Part shown: one piece after another, positions 3,930 through 11,783 of the stretch
Numbering within the stretch: position 1 is the stretch's first letter
Layout: each line of letters starts with the position of its first letter
From: Jiangella mangrovi
GTDB taxonomy: Bacteria > Actinomycetota > Actinomycetes > Jiangellales > Jiangellaceae
Length of the DNA: 64,000 nucleotides
Direction of reading: 5' to 3'
NCBI RefSeq assembly: GCF_014204975.1
Contig: NZ_JACHMM010000001.1
Coordinates: 1,736,001-1,800,000, forward strand
Notes under the pieces: generated by a model
The model's database searches: none
The model's input: only the letters and a program-made list of their open reading frames with translations
What the model was told of the DNA's origin: nothing
Program-made: the position numbers and the translations under genes

Positions 3930-4333
3930 CTCCGAGCCAGTTGTTGCGCGAGCGGCACCAGCTCGGGCGGCCGCAGGTCGATCGTGTGCAGCAGGTCGAC
4001 GGGGACGTGGTCGACGAGGTGGCCGGCGGTGAGCTCGGGGCCGCAGCGCAACGACGGGTCCATCGTCAGCAGCTGGGCGAGGAAGACGTGCTGGCGAGTC
4101 GGGTGCTCAGTGGTCGGCTCGACGACGTGGACCCGGCCGAGCACCTGCGCCGTCGCGCCGAGCTCCTCCATGAGCTCTCGGTGCAGCGCCGCCTCGAGCG
4201 AGTCGTCCGACGGCTCGAGCTTGCCGCCCGGTGTCGTCCAGTACGGCCCCCGTCCCGGCCGCACCCGTTTGATCAGCACCAGCCGGCCGCCGTCGTCGAA
4301 GAGGAGGGCCCGGGCCGATCGCACCGCCGTCAT
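3917..4333 (-). CDS. NUDIX hydrolase
   Basis: This 138-residue protein starts at the ATG at 4333. Nudix enzymes hydrolyse nucleoside diphosphates linked to another moiety, using a metal held by the Nudix box. The box is visible as GGKLEPSDDSLEAALHRELM followed by EELGA at about residues 38-62; it keeps the REL-x-EE-x-G core. There is one extra residue between the leading glycine and the RE pair, and Asp replaces the first Glu. The substrate cannot be inferred. The 3' end overlaps the WYL gene ending at 3929, and the start is 40 bp from the divergent OGG-fold gene at 4373. Confidence 0.88.
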   Translation of the reverse strand: MTAVRSARALLFDDGGRLVLIKRVRPGRGPYWTTPGGKLEPSDDSLEAALHRELMEELGATAQVLGRVHVVEPTTEHPTRQHVFLAQLLTMDPSLRCGPELTAGHLVDHVPVDLLHTIDLRPPELVPLAQQLARSQSV

Positions 4334-4372
4334 GATCACGATCCTGTCAGTGCCTCCGCCTACGTTGAGCCC

Positions 4373-5122
4373 ATGAGCATGCCGCCGCCGGTGTTGCGCG
4401 ACCTTCTCGACCGGTACGCCGGCGTCGAGCAGAAGCCCGTGCGCATCCGGCCCAGCACGTGGCAGAACGCCCTCATCCGCGTCCCTGAGTCGCTCGAGGT
4501 GACGTCGCTGCTGACGCACCGGCGCTTCACCCGCGCCGTTCCGGGGTCGAAGACGCACGACCGCACCATCGGCCGCGACGGCGTGCGCGCGGCCTGCGCC
4601 GCCCTCAACGTCGACGACACCAAGGAGGTGCTCCGGACGTTCGTGCTGGTCATGGCGTGGGGCTCCGGGCTGGTGGGCGGCCGCAACCAGGCCAACACCG
4701 CGAAGGCCGTCCTCGACCCCGGTCGAGCGTTCCGCGTGCTCAGCGACTCCGCCAAGGTCCTGCGCCACGCCGCCGGCTTCCACGACGGCGCGCTGGAAGA
4801 GGTGCACCGCTGGTGGTCGCTCCCAGGCGTCGGGCAGTCGTTCGCGAGCAAGTGGTGGGCCTTCGCCGGCCACACCGCCGGGCGCGAGTGGCAGCCGCTC
4901 ATCCTCGACAGCCGGGTCTACGCCACGCTCAACGACACCCTGCGCATCGGCGGGACCACCCGGCTGGCCGGCTCGCGCCGCCGGGCCGACCGCTACCGCG
5001 CCTACGTCGAGACCGTCCACCGCTGGGCGCTCGAGTTCCAGATGTCCGGCCTCGACATCGACGCCGAGCGCATCGAGTTCGTGCTGTTCCACCACAACGG
5101 AGGCGCCCCACCCAGCCGCTGA
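4373..5122 (+). CDS. HhH-GPD/OGG-fold protein, copy 1
   Basis: This 249-residue protein has no signal or membrane segment. Around residues 145-185 it carries SLPGVGQSFASKWWAFAG followed by a conserved ILDSRVYATL. LPGVG is the hairpin of helix-hairpin-helix DNA glycosylases, and the Asp in LDSRV sits where OGG1-type enzymes carry the catalytic Asp (PVDVHV). The RRADRYRAYVE segment resembles the last helix of that fold. This matches the poorly studied actinobacterial 8-oxoguanine-glycosylase-OGG-fold family. Activity is unproven, because the Lys of the K-x-G...D pair is not clearly in place. A tandem paralog follows 71 bp later. An alternative start is the ATG at 4379. Confidence 0.7.
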   Translation: MSMPPPVLRDLLDRYAGVEQKPVRIRPSTWQNALIRVPESLEVTSLLTHRRFTRAVPGSKTHDRTIGRDGVRAACAALNVDDTKEVLRTFVLVMAWGSGLVGGRNQANTAKAVLDPGRAFRVLSDSAKVLRHAAGFHDGALEEVHRWWSLPGVGQSFASKWWAFAGHTAGREWQPLILDSRVYATLNDTLRIGGTTRLAGSRRRADRYRAYVETVHRWALEFQMSGLDIDAERIEFVLFHHNGGAPPSR

Positions 5123-5193
5123 ATTCGGAGGCCATCATTCGGCGCCAGGCGTAATGTCCTGATTGCACACATCCGCGGCCCACGGGGGACGCC

Positions 5194-5961
5194 ATGGCGC
5201 GCATCGTCAGCACCGCGCTGCCCGCCGCCCTTCCGGCGCTCATCGACAAGTATCGCGACGTCCAGCCGAGGCCGGTGCGGTTCCGGCCGGCGACGTGGAA
5301 GGGCGTGCTCTACCACGCGCCGGCCGGGCTCGACATCACAGCGTTGCTGCGCAGCCGGCAGTACACCGCGCCGCTCGCGGAGTCGAAGGCCAAGGACCGC
5401 ACCGTCACGCTCGCCGACGTGCGGGCGGCCTGCCGGGCCATGGACGTCGCCGACGAGCGCGAGGTGCTGCAGGCGTTCGTCCTGACCATGGCCTGGGCGT
5501 CGGAAGGCGCGGCGGCCAACCCGACGCTGCGGGCGACGGCGCGAGCCCTCACCGATCCCGGCCGCGCGCACCGGATCCTGAGCGACGCCGTCCGCACGCT
5601 CCGGTCGGCCCAGAGCATCCAGGACGGGAGCCTCGAGGCCGCCCACCGGGCGTGGACGCTGCGTGGCGTCGGCCAGTCGCAGGCGAGCCGGTGGTGGGCC
5701 TGCGCGGGCTACGTCGCCGGCCGCACCTGGCAGCCGCTGGTCCTCGACGACCGGGTGTACGCGACGTTGAACAGAACTCTCATGATCGGCGGGACGACCC
5801 GGCTGGCGAGCTCGCGGCGCCGCGCGGACCGCTACCGCGCCTACGTCGAGGCGATCCACCGCTGGGCCGTTGAGCTGCGGCTCGAGGGCCGCGACGCCGA
5901 CGCCGAGCGCATCGCGTTCGTGCTCGGCCGGCACGACGGCGGAGCGGTCCCGACACCCTGA
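5194..5961 (+). CDS. HhH-GPD/OGG-fold protein, copy 2
   Basis: This 255-residue protein is collinear with the gene at 4373 over its whole length. Shared blocks include the opening DKYRDVQxRPVRFRPxTWK, the middle VLQAFVLTMAW, and the C-terminal VYATLNxTLxIGGTTRLA then SRRRADRYRAYVE. The hairpin here is LRGVGQSQASRWWACAG, so the Pro of LPGVG is replaced and the following Lys (SKWW) is Arg. The putative catalytic Asp is kept in VLDDRVYATL. The start ATG at 5194 follows a GGGGGA-type ribosome site. The two copies probably arose by tandem duplication and diverged, and one may have lost catalysis. The function remains unknown. Confidence 0.68.
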   Translation: MARIVSTALPAALPALIDKYRDVQPRPVRFRPATWKGVLYHAPAGLDITALLRSRQYTAPLAESKAKDRTVTLADVRAACRAMDVADEREVLQAFVLTMAWASEGAAANPTLRATARALTDPGRAHRILSDAVRTLRSAQSIQDGSLEAAHRAWTLRGVGQSQASRWWACAGYVAGRTWQPLVLDDRVYATLNRTLMIGGTTRLASSRRRADRYRAYVEAIHRWAVELRLEGRDADAERIAFVLGRHDGGAVPTP

Positions 5962-6117: not shown

Positions 6118-7944
6118 GTGACGACACACCCTGCTCTCGACGACGAGCAGCAGCGGCTCGACCGCTCGTATGCCCTTCTCGGTGACGACGCGCCGGACCG
6201 GCCGCTGATCTTCGGCCGGGTCGACGACGCCGGCGGCTCACGTTACGTGGGTCGCATCGAGGTCCGCGACGACGCCGGCGACTCCGTCGTCATCGCCTGG
6301 CACTCGCCCAAGGCCGGCGCGTTCTACCAGGCCTGCGCCACCGACCCGGCCGGCGTCACGCTCAAGCGCGTCGTGACCGTCAGCGGCCGCCAGGTCATCG
6401 CCGTCCACGACGAGATCGCCGACGGAGTCCCCGCCGACGTCAGCCCCGACCGCGACCAGCGCCCCGTCGTCGGCAAGGTCGTCGTCGCCGCGCTCGAGCA
6501 GTTCCGCACCGGGACCATCGCTGAGGCCACGGCCACCCTCCGGCCCGAGCAGTACCGCATCGTCCGCGAGCCGGCCGACGGCGTCCTGGTCGTCCGCGGC
6601 GGGCCCGGCACCGGCAAGACCATCACCGCGCTGCACCGCGCCGCATGGCTGGCCACCAACGACGACGGCGTCCGCTCGGCCGGGCTGCTGGTCGTGGTGC
6701 CGACCCCGGCGCTGCGCAGCTACATCGGCGACGCCCTGCCGTGCCTCGGCGTCGACGCGGTCACGGCCGACATCGCGTCGCTGTACGCCGGCCCGGCGCG
6801 CCGGCGCGGCCGCGACACGAAGGCCGAGGCCGCACGGGTCAAGGGCTCCGCCGTCATGGCCATGGTGCTGCGCCGCCTGGTCGAGTCGATCGACGACCCT
6901 GCCGGGCCCGGCACTCCCGAAGGCCTGCTGCGCGACCTCTACGCCGACCCTGCCCTGCTCGAGCGCCTGGCCGACGACCTCCTCAAGGTGGGCCAGCGCG
7001 ACGTCCTGTACCGCGAGCCGGCCGCGTCCGCCGACGACGAGCCGTGGACCGTCGACGACCTCGTGCTGCTCGACGAGCTGTCGTACCTGCTGGGCCGGGC
7101 GCCGCGGCGCTATGGGCACGCCGTCGTCGACGAAGCACAGAACCTGTCGCCCATGCAGGCGCGCGCCATCGCCCGCCGCTGCCGCGACGTCACGCTCGTC
7201 GGCGATCTCGAGTGCTCCACCGGACCCGGCAAGCACGACACCTGGAGCGAGCTGACCAGCTACTTCGCGTCCGAGGCTCGCGAGGCGACGCTGAGCCTCG
7301 GCTACCGCGTCCCACGCCCGGTCGTCGAGCTGTCGCGCCGGCAGCTGGCCGACGGCGGCACGCTCGACCTCGCACAGTCCTTGCGCGACGGCCTCGGCAC
7401 CCCGCTCGTCCGCCGGGTCGACCCCGGCGACGCCGTCGCGGTGGCGATCTCCGCGGGCGAAGCGGCGGCCGGGACGGGGTTCAAGGTCGGCGTCGTCGTG
7501 GCACCGGCGCGCTACGACGAGGTCCTGCGCTACTGCAGCGCGGCCGGCATCAAGGCCGGCGACGGCCGCGACGGCGACCTCGGCCAACCGGTCACGCTGC
7601 TCCCCGCCGACCAGGTCAGCGGGCTCGAGTTCGACGCCGTGGCGCTGGTCGAGCCGGCCGAGATCGGCGACGGCACCGAGCTCGGCCGGCGGCTGCTGTA
7701 CGTCGCCATGACCCGCTGCACGCAGTCGCTCGCGGTCTTCCACTCCGCACCCCTGCCGGCCGGCATGGAGCATCTCGAGGGCCCGGCGCCGTCACGCGAG
7801 CCCGAGGTGGAGCACCGGCCCAAGCCGGCCCGCACCCAGGACCTCGTCGACCTGTTCGAACTCCTCCGCGACGACGACCGCATGCTCGTCGAGGTCCTCA
7901 TCCGGCGCCTCGTCCGCGACTCCCTCGAGCGCGACGACGACTGA
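6118..7944 (+). CDS. HelD-like UvrD-family ATPase, short form
   Basis: The GTG start at 6118 has a GAGGAAGGAC site upstream; the product is 608 residues. The N-terminal part reads like HelD (RNA polymerase recycling motor), with YVGRIEVRDDAGDS, then AWHSPKAGAFYQA and a VVTVSGRQV segment. Superfamily 1 motifs follow: Walker A GGPGTGKT at 161-168, Walker B with VVDEAQNLSP near 340, GLEFD near 505, and a C-terminal LLYVAMTRC. Typical HelD is about 750 residues and opens with a long coiled-coil arm that enters the polymerase secondary channel. Here only about 30 residues precede the HelD-like region, so the arm is missing. It lies 45 bp upstream of the probable toxin gene and may share its transcript. 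Confidence 0.82.
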   Translation: MTTHPALDDEQQRLDRSYALLGDDAPDRPLIFGRVDDAGGSRYVGRIEVRDDAGDSVVIAWHSPKAGAFYQACATDPAGVTLKRVVTVSGRQVIAVHDEIADGVPADVSPDRDQRPVVGKVVVAALEQFRTGTIAEATATLRPEQYRIVREPADGVLVVRGGPGTGKTITALHRAAWLATNDDGVRSAGLLVVVPTPALRSYIGDALPCLGVDAVTADIASLYAGPARRRGRDTKAEAARVKGSAVMAMVLRRLVESIDDPAGPGTPEGLLRDLYADPALLERLADDLLKVGQRDVLYREPAASADDEPWTVDDLVLLDELSYLLGRAPRRYGHAVVDEAQNLSPMQARAIARRCRDVTLVGDLECSTGPGKHDTWSELTSYFASEAREATLSLGYRVPRPVVELSRRQLADGGTLDLAQSLRDGLGTPLVRRVDPGDAVAVAISAGEAAAGTGFKVGVVVAPARYDEVLRYCSAAGIKAGDGRDGDLGQPVTLLPADQVSGLEFDAVALVEPAEIGDGTELGRRLLYVAMTRCTQSLAVFHSAPLPAGMEHLEGPAPSREPEVEHRPKPARTQDLVDLFELLRDDDRMLVEVLIRRLVRDSLERDDD

Positions 7945-7989
7945 GCCGATCCGCTGCATTGACGCAAGGCGTCGGTTATCGTCGGACCC

Positions 7990-9126
7990 GTGGCGCTGCC
8001 GAGCTCGACCGACCGCGGTGAGCTGCGATCGGCCGTCGAAGGCCTGCTGCGCACCTGTGTGGAAGTGGAACGCGGCACGGCCGACATGGTGGCGCGGATC
8101 GAGCAGCGGGTGCGCCGGGTGACGGGCGAGCTCGCGGCGGTCCGGCTGCCGGCGCACGTCATCGACGTGGCCGCCCTCGCCCAGGAGGTCGACGGCGTCG
8201 GGCGCGGGCTGGGCGGCGATCTCGACGGCCTGCTGGCCGAGGCGCGGCAGCCGTACGTGACGCAGATCCACGCCCTGCTCGCGCTGCTGGCGCCGCTGCA
8301 CGGCCTCGGGCCCGTCGCGCCGCTCACCCCCGTCGCCCCGGCCACGAGCCTCGACGGATTGTTCCCCGACGGGTTCGCCCGCGAGTACGTGGCCGACCTG
8401 CTCGCCGGCGTCCACCGCGGCGCCACCCTTACCCGCGACGACGCCACCGGCGTCGCGACGGTCCTCCAGCGCGACGCCGACGAGGCGATCGCCGCCTCCC
8501 GAGCTGGCTTCACCGACGACCATCGGTCAGGCGGCGTCGAGTTGCTCGCCGCCGACGAGTGCCACGCGGTCGAGCAGCACGGGCCGCAGATCCCCGACCA
8601 GGCCCAGCTGGCGCGGCTGCTCTGGCTCAAGGACCCCACCGGCGAGTGGCCGTGGCACGTCGACCCGTCGGGAGCTGTCGTCACAGAGCACTGGTCCGGC
8701 CCGGCGACCGGCGGCTTCACCTCCCCCGAGGCGATGGCGAAGCCGCTACAAGCACTGTTGGAGCACGCACGTACCGCCGCCGGCGGCCTGGACGCGTATC
8801 TCACCGACAACACGGACGACGAGACCAAGGTCGCGCTGCACATCTCAGCCGAGCAGGCCGATCTGAGAGCCGGCGACGCCTTCGGGTACCGGGCCGCCGG
8901 CGCCGGCACCAAGACGACGAGACGTGATTGGCTCGCCGCGCGAAAGTACGCCATGCGCCGGGGCCACGGGCAGGTCTATGGCGTGCCCGACGACCCGATC
9001 GCCAGCGGCGACGATCCGGGAGCGACGATCATCTTGACGAGAACGGGGAACGGGTGGCGGCTGACCACCTGCTATCCGGTGGACCGGCAGAGACCCTCGA
9101 CCATACGCCTGGAGGACTTCGGATGA
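7990..9126 (+). CDS. Probable polymorphic toxin with C-terminal RNase A-like (CdiA-CT type) domain
   Basis: This 378-residue protein has a GTG start at 7990. Residues 1-105 are predicted helical, then come a Pro/Val linker (108-120) and a second helical part. The last 155 residues (about 220-372) follow the layout of bacterial RNase A-like contact-inhibition toxins. An early His lies in WHVDPSGAVVTEHW (223). A GGFTSPEAMAKPLQALLEHA helix is followed by a DAYL turn, a KVALHI strand and an AFGYRA segment. The terminal ATIILTRTGNGWRLTTCYPV strand carries the T-x-Y signature (360-362). Family toxins cut tRNA or other RNA. No secretion signal is visible. The gene ends in an ATGA overlap with the next, as in toxin-immunity pairs. 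Confidence 0.6.
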   Translation: MALPSSTDRGELRSAVEGLLRTCVEVERGTADMVARIEQRVRRVTGELAAVRLPAHVIDVAALAQEVDGVGRGLGGDLDGLLAEARQPYVTQIHALLALLAPLHGLGPVAPLTPVAPATSLDGLFPDGFAREYVADLLAGVHRGATLTRDDATGVATVLQRDADEAIAASRAGFTDDHRSGGVELLAADECHAVEQHGPQIPDQAQLARLLWLKDPTGEWPWHVDPSGAVVTEHWSGPATGGFTSPEAMAKPLQALLEHARTAAGGLDAYLTDNTDDETKVALHISAEQADLRAGDAFGYRAAGAGTKTTRRDWLAARKYAMRRGHGQVYGVPDDPIASGDDPGATIILTRTGNGWRLTTCYPVDRQRPSTIRLEDFG

Positions 9127-9665
9127 TCCCCTGGAGCAGGAGGTTCCAACTGATCTTCGGCGGCGGATTCGCGCTGGCGGACGATGAGCCGGCCCTGTAC
9201 ATCGAGGCTGTCGAGGAGGCGCCCGTGCGTCTGGCCAACGACGCGTCCGGGAGCTACCACGCCTTCCGTGAGGAGTTCGCCGTCCATATCCGGGAGTCGT
9301 CCTTCCCTCCGGAGTCGGAGGCCGAGTCGCAGTGGATGACCGACGAGTGGCTGCGCGACGTCTGGTACGACGCCTTCGGACCCGAGCCCGCCCCCGGCGA
9401 CCCCTTCCCCGTGCCTCAGGAGGACTGGGGTCACAGTCGGCTGACCGACTACATGCTGCACGCGATCAACCAGACGCTGGAGACCAGCGCCCCCGGCGCG
9501 GCGGAGTGGCTGGCGGCTCGGGGCCTGACGGTCGAGGACATCGGCGCGGCCGTCGACCGGTCCCCCACACAGTCGGTCGGGTTCCGGTCGGCGCCGGAGG
9601 GATGGCTGGACCATCTGCACGACCTGACGGCTCGCGGCCTGCGCGAAGCACAGCCGGGCGAGTGA
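9123..9665 (+). CDS. Putative immunity protein for the upstream toxin
   Basis: The ATG at 9123 overlaps the toxin stop codon (ATGA), so translation is probably coupled. The 180-residue product is acidic (many Asp/Glu, with EAVEEAP, EREEFAV-like and ESEAESQW stretches). It has no signal peptide or membrane helix, as expected for a cytoplasmic antidote that binds a basic RNase. I do not recognise a named immunity family. The call rests on position, coupling, size and charge rather than homology. The gene is followed by a 177-bp AT-richer gap before the second WYL pair. Confidence 0.5.
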   Translation: MIPWSRRFQLIFGGGFALADDEPALYIEAVEEAPVRLANDASGSYHAFREEFAVHIRESSFPPESEAESQWMTDEWLRDVWYDAFGPEPAPGDPFPVPQEDWGHSRLTDYMLHAINQTLETSAPGAAEWLAARGLTVEDIGAAVDRSPTQSVGFRSAPEGWLDHLHDLTARGLREAQPGE

Positions 9666-9842
9666 ATAGTTCATTAGGTGAAACCGTCACCACCTTGTGC
9701 CTATCGAAACCTCCGTGGCTAACCGGCATTTGGGGCAATACACCGGAGTAATTCGACCCAAAATGAGAAATGACGAACTACTCTGGCCTTTCACATGACA
9801 CGGGCATAGCATGATCGTCCGATGTTGCTGTGGAGGGGCGCC
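9666..9842 (+). promoter_or_regulatory. AT-richer promoter region of the second WYL pair
   Basis: This gap is visibly poorer in G+C than its surroundings. It contains a short hairpin GGTGA-AACCG-TCACC (9677-9691) just after the putative immunity gene, which could be a weak terminator. A ribosome site GGAGGGG at about 9832-9838 fixes the start of the next gene at 9843. No convincing -35/-10 pair was found, although CATAGCATGAT near 9805-9815 could hold a -10 element. Confidence 0.35.
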
Positions 9843-10754
9843 ATGGCTGGAGGACGGGACCAACTCGGTCCATTGGAACGGGTGACCCGAGTGCTGGTCG
9901 CGCTGGTCGCGGCCGAGCCCAAGGGGATCCCGACGCCGCGACTGCTGAAGATCGCGGCGTTCGGTGGGGGAGAAGAGCATCATGTACGACAGTTGAAGCG
10001 GCTGATCGAAGATCTCAACGCGGCCGGGTGGAACATCCGCAACACCGCGCCACCCGGGCAGACCGCGGTCTATCGCGCGTTCGCCGGCGACAATCGGCTC
10101 CGGCTGACATTGACTCCGGCTCAGCAGGCCGAACTGGCCCGCGCCGCGCTCATTGCCGGCGACGCCGAGTTCGCCGAGCGCGCCGGCATCGAGGGCACCC
10201 GCGCCGAGCCGATCCCGGAGCTGCGCACGGCGCAGAACGCGCAGCGCGACGATGCCCTCGACAAGGTGCTGTACGCGCTGGAGCGACGGTGCCGGCTGCG
10301 GTTCGTCTACAAGCAGCGGCTCCGCGTCGTGCATCCGCACTTCGTCTATCCGGGCACGTCGGGCTGGCACCTGGTCGGCCATGAGGACGGCAGCGAGAAG
10401 GACAAGCAGTTCGTCACCGATCGCATGTCCGCCGTCCGCGTCGACCTGCCGCGCACCGCGGACCCGCGGCACGAGCCGTACCGCGATGAGCTCGACCCGC
10501 TGACCTGGGGGGTCGACGAGCCGGTCGACGTCACCGTCGAGACGACCCCGGCGCACCGCAACCAGGTCGAGACGCTGCTGGGCACGCCGTCGTACCGCGA
10601 GGTCGACGACGACGTGGTCCGGCTGACGATCCGGGTGACGCACCGGTCGGCGTTCCGCAACCGCGTCTACGAACTCGGCCCGCGCGTCCGCGTGCTCGGG
10701 CCCGAGAGCATCCGCAGCGAGCTCCTCACGGAGCTGGAATCCCTCCTGGACTGA
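9843..10754 (+). CDS. WYL-domain transcriptional regulator (PafB-like member of pair 2)
   Basis: This 303-residue paralog of the gene at 1955 shares the opening GGRDQLGPLERVTR, the WNIRN motif near residue 60, and the HPHFVYPGTSGWHLVGHED form of the WYL core, where HLV replaces WYL. The TDRMSAV segment and a C-terminal VYELGPRVRVLGPE are also kept. The ATG at 9843 is preferred over an upstream ATG at 9822 because a GGAGGGG site sits at the right distance and the paralog starts identically. It is three bases from its partner's start region (10758), which makes a tight operon. It is likely to work with that partner as a PafBC-like activator, with unknown targets. Confidence 0.85.
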   Translation: MAGGRDQLGPLERVTRVLVALVAAEPKGIPTPRLLKIAAFGGGEEHHVRQLKRLIEDLNAAGWNIRNTAPPGQTAVYRAFAGDNRLRLTLTPAQQAELARAALIAGDAEFAERAGIEGTRAEPIPELRTAQNAQRDDALDKVLYALERRCRLRFVYKQRLRVVHPHFVYPGTSGWHLVGHEDGSEKDKQFVTDRMSAVRVDLPRTADPRHEPYRDELDPLTWGVDEPVDVTVETTPAHRNQVETLLGTPSYREVDDDVVRLTIRVTHRSAFRNRVYELGPRVRVLGPESIRSELLTELESLLD

Positions 10755-10757
10755 CCC

Positions 10758-11783
10758 ATGACGATGACCACGCCCGTGTTCGTCCGCCGTTTCGAGCGGG
10801 TCGCGCACGCGCTCCAGATCCTGACCATGCACCCCGACGGCGTCCCGTTGAGCCGGCTGGCGGCCGAGCTGGACGTCGACGAGCAGACGTTGCGCGACGA
10901 GATCGTGGCGTTCTACTGCGCTGACAGCGCCGCGTTCGATCCCGGCCCGCTGCGGCAGGTGCGCATCGAGTTCCTCGACCGCGACGGCGAGGTCGACGAG
11001 GCCGACCCCGCGGTGGCCGAGCTGGTGCGCGCGTCGACCGAGCGGCCCGCGGCCGAGATCGGCGTGGTGCACACGTCGCCGGCCGAGCTGGCCAACATCT
11101 ATCGCGCCGGGCAGGCCTTGCTGTCGCTGGAGCCCGACAACGACGTGCTCGACGGCGCCCTGCGAGCGCTCGGCGGCACGATGCTGCGGGGCATCCGGCC
11201 GGTCGACGACCACTGGAAGGCCGAACTCGCCGGCCGGCTCGTCGAGGCGATCAAGCAGCGCCGCTGGGTGCGTATCGACTACACGCCCGTGTGGCGCGAC
11301 GACAGCCGCGAGCACCGCATCGCGCCATACCGTCTGCTGCGGACCCGGCGCGGCTGGGAGGTCGACGCCGGTATGTCCGCCGACGGGCGGGTCGTGGGCA
11401 GCTTCCTGCTCACCGGCATCCGCGAGGCGACGGTGCTCGACGAGACCTTCGAGCGCCCGCCCGAGATCGACGACCGGCTGGCGGGCACCCGGTACGAGCA
11501 GCAGGTCGAGCTGGTGGTCCCGCAGGACGCCCGCTGGGTGGTGGACCGGTTCGCCGAGGGCTCGGAGCTCCTGGACGAGGACGCGGAGTCGGTGAAGCTG
11601 CGGGTGCGGCTGCTGCCGCCGGTCGAGCGCCGGCTCGGCATCCTGCTGCTGACCGCCGGACCGGAGGCGTTCGTCACCGACCCGCCGGCGCTGGCCGACG
11701 CCGGACGGCAGGTCGCGCGCGAGTTGTTCGAGCACCACTCGACCATCGCCGGGCCGCTGCCCGGGCCCGAGCGGGGCGCGTGA
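10758..11783 (+). CDS. WYL-domain transcriptional regulator (PafC-like member of pair 2)
   Basis: This 341-residue paralog of the gene at 2934 has an N-terminal HTH-like region (VRRFERVAHALQILTMHPDG), a WYL-type middle part (IDYTPVWRDDSREHRIAPYR) and the C-terminal PQDARWVVDRFAEGSELLDE block. The last 20 residues (GPLPGPERGA end) are an unstructured tail absent from the first copy. It starts 3 bp after the preceding gene and lies 13 bp before an osmC-like gene, so transcription may continue. An alternative start is the ATG at 10764. Confidence 0.82.
   Translation: MTMTTPVFVRRFERVAHALQILTMHPDGVPLSRLAAELDVDEQTLRDEIVAFYCADSAAFDPGPLRQVRIEFLDRDGEVDEADPAVAELVRASTERPAAEIGVVHTSPAELANIYRAGQALLSLEPDNDVLDGALRALGGTMLRGIRPVDDHWKAELAGRLVEAIKQRRWVRIDYTPVWRDDSREHRIAPYRLLRTRRGWEVDAGMSADGRVVGSFLLTGIREATVLDETFERPPEIDDRLAGTRYEQQVELVVPQDARWVVDRFAEGSELLDEDAESVKLRVRLLPPVERRLGILLLTAGPEAFVTDPPALADAGRQVARELFEHHSTIAGPLPGPERGA

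Follow-up and report, generated by a model that had tools for sequence, protein, structure and literature searches.

A probable toxin-immunity gene pair with a distant RNase A-like domain in Jiangella

Jiangella is a soil actinobacterium. The window analysed here is a stretch of 64,000 nucleotides from Jiangella mangrovi (contig NZ_JACHMM010000001.1, positions 1,736,001 to 1,800,000), whose genome consists of a single contig of 7.16 Mb and whose relatives are the other Jiangella species and the sister genus Haloactinopolyspora. At positions 7990-9665 of the window, on the forward strand (+), lie two overlapping genes. The upstream gene (7990..9126, GTG start) encodes a putative toxin of 378 aa, a reading based on the open frame, an alignment of 47 full-length relatives and an AlphaFold model with a mean pLDDT of 94.7. 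The downstream gene (9123..9665, ATG start) encodes a putative immunity protein of 180 aa, called the partner below, which has a pI of 4.4, contains 32 D+E compared to 12 K+R residues and always adjoins the toxin. The toxin stop and the partner start share the sequence ATGA (9123..9126). Both this overlap and the acidic second protein had been pointed out in an initial annotation of the DNA, and both are confirmed.

Neither protein is recognised by standard libraries: hmmscan against Pfam, NCBIfam and PADLOC gave zero matches for the toxin or the partner, and single members of the toxin family, searched one by one against Pfam at E values up to 10, matched nothing. Apart from one weak match to something unrelated, profile searches of the PDB with the two proteins returned only artefacts of helical bundles or repeats. 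We also found no earlier work on Jiangella toxins in the papers searched.

A genome scan with a single sequence missed the family, and a scan with an alignment of the partner recovered it. The window genome contains four copies of the pair, and each of 12 Jiangella species contains 3-6. In total, family searches found pairs in 12/12 Jiangella genomes and 2/2 genomes of the sister genus, compared to 0/381 sampled genomes of other Actinomycetes. No relative was found on viral contigs or plasmids, nor any of the toxin in phages. As far as these searches reach, the family appears so far to be known only from Jiangella and its sister genus.

The partner gene is located directly 3′ of the toxin gene in all 47 full-length cases, with an overlap of 4 nt in 41 pairs, 1 nt in five and 26 nt in one. 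Because this two-gene layout is kept in all 47 relatives, the arrangement is not due to chance. In two copies the toxin frame is broken and the partner intact, and no intact toxin with a broken partner was seen in the family. Breakage of the toxin first is what would be expected of a toxin and its immunity protein, though the number of such cases is two. Separately, a partner-like (immunity-like) domain was observed in a protein of 426-433 aa that Haloactinopolyspora and a related MAG encode near the toxin pair (L087:3991-5289 and L015:158-1435). The C-terminus of the L087 copy also matches an M48 metallopeptidase region.

In the window, the pair corresponds to an accessory insertion (7945..9821, +) between a HelR-like gene that ends at 7944 and a WYL gene that starts at 9822. 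In 10 of the 11 other Jiangella genomes, nothing in the syntenic gap matches the toxin or the immunity gene. In the closest relative, whose WYL protein is 95% identical, only the first ~55 toxin codons remain (L216:8090-8251). The closest partner (73%) belongs to a pair in Haloactinopolyspora alba, where the same neighbouring genes adjoin the pair but are arranged in another order. Since the site is empty or remnant-bearing elsewhere, we describe the window pair as an accessory unit which has been gained or retained here and is decaying or absent in other genomes. Relics of the first 33-55 toxin codons, lacking an immunity gene, are present both at this syntenic site and at L086:1429-1527.

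The neighbouring genes deserve a brief description. The HelR-like gene (6118-7944) encodes a 608-aa helicase which matches HelR/HelD models far below their cut-offs and may be a divergent factor for RNA polymerase recycling. The WYL gene downstream of the pair (9822-11783) is PafB-like, and a second WYL gene about 7 kb upstream (1946-2878) is about 52% identical to it. Several relatives carry a second WYL gene after each of the two, which gives PafBC-like pairs. Finally, two tandem OGG-like genes (PF21790 type) at 3941-5961 are found side by side in most Jiangella.

For the C-terminal domain of the toxin, we used a comparison profile of 24 PF18431 domains collected from other Actinobacteria. 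In hhalign, the C-domain matches PF18431 (RNAse_A_bac) end to end over 116 columns, with a probability of 92.7% and a score of 46.8 compared to 22.4 (5.7%) for the best of 400 column shuffles. A reversed profile reached 0.3%. An EndoU control against the C-domain profile gave 0.9%, and EndoU was rejected as an alternative fold on this basis. With random half-sets of PF18431 the probability ranged from 67 to 95%, and the most divergent toxin subfamily on its own did not reach PF18431 (probability 3%). The curated Pfam model PF18431 found 0 matches among the 47 members or in the whole window genome. Taken as sequence comparisons, these results support a distant relationship of the C-domain to the bacterial RNase A family represented by PF18431 and by CdiA-CT of Yersinia kristensenii (Ykris), a relationship which would be invisible to ordinary family searches or to Foldseek alone. 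The initial annotation had placed an RNase A-like domain in the last 155 residues. Its RNase A-like character is supported, and its extent is about residues 184-378 (8539..9123, +) based on the alignment to PF18431 members and the AlphaFold element order. The C-domain is mildly acidic (pI 5.3), which is unusual for an RNase toxin.

Across the 47 sequences, the residues H192, H197, G198, R209, W222, H234, W314, R318, G344, W356 and T360 are invariant. The active site of CdiA-CT Ykris is formed by H175, R186, T276 and Y278 (PMC9086364). Members of PF18431 match its solved chain, 5E3E, along which we counted the Ykris residue numbers with an offset of 167 (our own reading); with this offset, the second His of the N-terminal His-x4-His motif of Ykris corresponds to H175. 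In the alignment, these four residues share columns with H197 (codon 8578..8580, +), R209 (8614..8616, +), T360 and Y362 (T360-C361-Y362, codons 9067..9075, +), respectively, position 362 being Y in 40/47 and F in 7/47 sequences. The T-x-Y motif is therefore where the initial annotation had located it. The early His is not: the proposed H223 is a His in only 2/47 relatives, and it is H197, with H192 nearby, that aligns with the catalytic H175.

The AlphaFold model of the toxin consists of an N-terminal helical hairpin without a family match (residues 7-49 and 60-104; 8008..8301, +), small helices and then the C-domain, in the order alpha-alpha-(beta hairpin insert)-beta-alpha-alpha-beta-beta-(helix)-beta-beta-beta. 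CdiA-CT Ykris has the order alpha-alpha-beta-alpha-alpha-beta-beta-beta-beta-beta (PMC9086364), and the two agree once the inserts are left out. In the structural comparison that the initial annotation had called for, the element order agrees, and Foldseek gave no PDB match below E = 1 for the full-length toxin model, with 5E3E absent among the 50 matches listed. Accordingly, the fold is assigned from sequence profiles, the order of the elements and the aligned residues. The partner model is all-alpha with eight helices (pLDDT 93), and Foldseek found nothing below E = 1 for it in the PDB. CdiI-Ykris also has eight helices (PMC9086364, PMC9970974). The shared count may be a coincidence, since the sequence of the partner does not resemble that of any solved immunity protein.

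Next, we examined how the pairs have diverged. Copies occupy fixed loci common to several species. Within three of these loci, the distances of the C-domain follow those of the partner (r = 0.80, 0.71 and 0.64 for loci B, C and D) and the distances of the N-domain do so weakly at best (0.30, -0.55 and 0.32, respectively); at locus A, no such decoupling of the N- and C-domains was seen in the distance comparison. For example, L031 and L022 are 80-97% identical over the flanks and the N-domain, drop to ~57-71% over the toxin core and the first part of the partner, and then return to 90-97%. A similar drop is found between L016 and L018. On average across the closely flanked pairs of four loci, nucleotide identity is 65-71% in the toxin core, at or near the minimum, compared to 81-92% in the flanks. 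The N-domain is the segment able to stay conserved while the C-domain and the partner change in one locus. The exchange of a variable toxin domain and its immunity gene behind a constant N-domain, as expected for polymorphic toxins, is found in loci B, C and D and in the L031/L022 and L016/L018 comparisons, and it involves alleles of one toxin family rather than unrelated toxin types. Ratios of dN/dS are about 0.2-0.5 for the C-domain; those for the partner range from 0.1 to 0.7 and mostly fall at 0.1-0.4. These values below 1 indicate that both proteins are kept functional under purifying selection. Judged from the alignments, the C-domain and the partner diverge between conserved flanks in the way a toxin-immunity specificity cassette does.

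The toxin-immunity reading is therefore supported by the strict pairing, by the co-divergence of C-domain and partner in orthologous loci and by the two broken toxins with intact partners. Overall, we consider it highly probable that 7990-9665 encodes a toxin-immunity module whose C-domain is a distant RNase A-family endoribonuclease.

How the toxin would leave the cell is less clear-cut. As the initial annotation had remarked, there is no secretion signal: no signal peptide is visible by eye, and family searches recognised no LXG, WXG100 or RHS delivery domain in the toxin. Comparison of the N-domain with the WXG100 protein of the same genome gave no detectable similarity (hhalign, 0.25%), and the idea that the N-domain is a WXG100 homologue found no support. 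EccB is absent from the window genome, though the same search finds it in 26/98 members of the class. On this basis we had considered that no type VII system was present, and we dropped this view once an EssC/WXG100 locus was found. A weak WXG100-like protein is present in every Jiangella; in the window genome it is adjoined by an EssC/EccC-like ATPase of 1554 aa (616 bits to TIGR03928, below the cut-off of 778). Besides these two proteins, this type VII-like locus (G000:C1:133532-141054, equivalent to L228:2533-10055) encodes one of 95 aa and a DUF6571 protein of 699 aa. It is possibly an unusual, EccB-less actinobacterial type VII system and is the leading candidate for delivery of the toxin; the N-terminal helical hairpin, in turn, is a possible export or targeting domain.

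Based on these results, we infer RNase activity of the toxin, inhibition through binding of the partner, and use of the pair between cells. By analogy with CdiA-CT Ykris, the C-domain would be a metal-independent endoribonuclease in which H197 would act as the general base, T360 and Y362 would stand in for His119 of RNase A, and R209 would stabilise the transition state or intermediate (PMC9970974). The immunity gene would be translationally coupled to the toxin gene through the overlap, and its acidic, all-helical product would neutralise the toxin, most likely by covering the active-site groove. The module would serve antagonism between related Jiangella strains and would diversify by exchanging toxin core and immunity gene as one unit. 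A broader hypothesis, which we put forward tentatively and regard as doubtful in its entirety, is that these are polymorphic toxins restricted to Jiangellaceae, residing at several fixed chromosomal sites in each genome and exported through an EccB-less EssC-type VII system by means of a new helical N-domain. Kin-specific variants would then arise by swapping only the RNase core along with the N-terminal half of the immunity gene, so that specificity would reside in the first ~80 immunity residues.

The main rival explanation concerns the place of action. The pair could be an intracellular toxin-antitoxin or abortive-infection unit, whose RNase, kept in check by the partner, would be freed on phage attack or stress without any export. 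The lack of a signal peptide and of a recognised LXG, WXG or RHS domain, the small two-gene operon with translational coupling and the absence of EccB are all compatible with such a unit. Nevertheless, we consider it unlikely: co-divergence of toxin core and partner with cassette-like exchange in fixed loci is the pattern of polymorphic toxins, and the toxin-first order, the large N-domain and the stable folded partner set the pair apart from classical type II antitoxins. PADLOC is also without a match, and the pair is not found on phages or plasmids.

Another alternative accepts a nuclease of a different kind, namely an RNase with the BECR fold from another clade (EndoU, Ntox or RelE type) which matches PF18431 by general fold similarity. 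The BECR and RNase A folds do overlap (PMC9086364), Foldseek gives no RNase A match, and a BECR nuclease with two His residues would also be compatible with H192, H197, H234 and T360. The end-to-end sequence match to PF18431 with all four active-site positions in register, together with the EndoU result (0.9%) and the failure of EndoU itself to match PF18431, makes this explanation improbable. Finally, the pair might contain no toxin at all and be a lineage-specific enzyme and regulator, such as a housekeeping RNase with a chaperone. Presence in every Jiangella genome, fixed loci, purifying selection and a partner more conserved than the enzyme would fit this description. It is nonetheless very improbable given that copy number varies, that most relatives have nothing at the window site and one retains a remnant there, that divergence is faster in the toxin core than in the flanks, and that the partner is retained beside broken toxins.

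Under the favoured toxin-immunity reading, bacterial RNase A toxins would gain a family unseen by current libraries, and an uncharacterised actinobacterial type VII system would gain a candidate cargo. Each species supplies numerous natural alleles, the flanks are conserved and the boundaries of exchange are clear, so that the specificity and stepwise diversification of an RNase A-type toxin and its immunity protein can be tested directly with existing sequences.

Among known systems, LXG/WXG type VII polymorphic toxins share with the Jiangella pair a long N-terminal helical hairpin, a C-terminal toxin, an adjacent immunity gene and a Gram-positive host with an EssC/WXG100 locus. The Jiangella pair differs from them in having no LXG/WXG100 family match and no Lap-like genes seen beside the toxin, and in not being encoded beside the type VII locus. 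MafB2-CT/MafI2 of Neisseria meningitidis B16B6, compared here by description, resembles the proposed Jiangella module as a polymorphic toxin of RNase A fold whose immunity protein, MafI2, blocks the substrate groove (PMC9970974); its acid residues and its secretion route are different. CdiA-CT/CdiI of Yersinia kristensenii (PDB 5E3E) resembles the Jiangella pair in element order, in the His/Arg/Thr/Tyr pattern and in having the immunity gene next, which encodes an eight-helix protein. Unlike CdiA-CT Ykris, the Jiangella toxin has no direct Pfam match, contains insertions around residues 215-235 and 304-340 and has the additional invariant residues H234, W314 and R318; it is a 378-aa protein with a helical-hairpin N-domain, whereas CdiA is a large exoprotein with CdiB. 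The Jiangella pair would be a new, lineage-restricted form of an already known toxin-immunity type.
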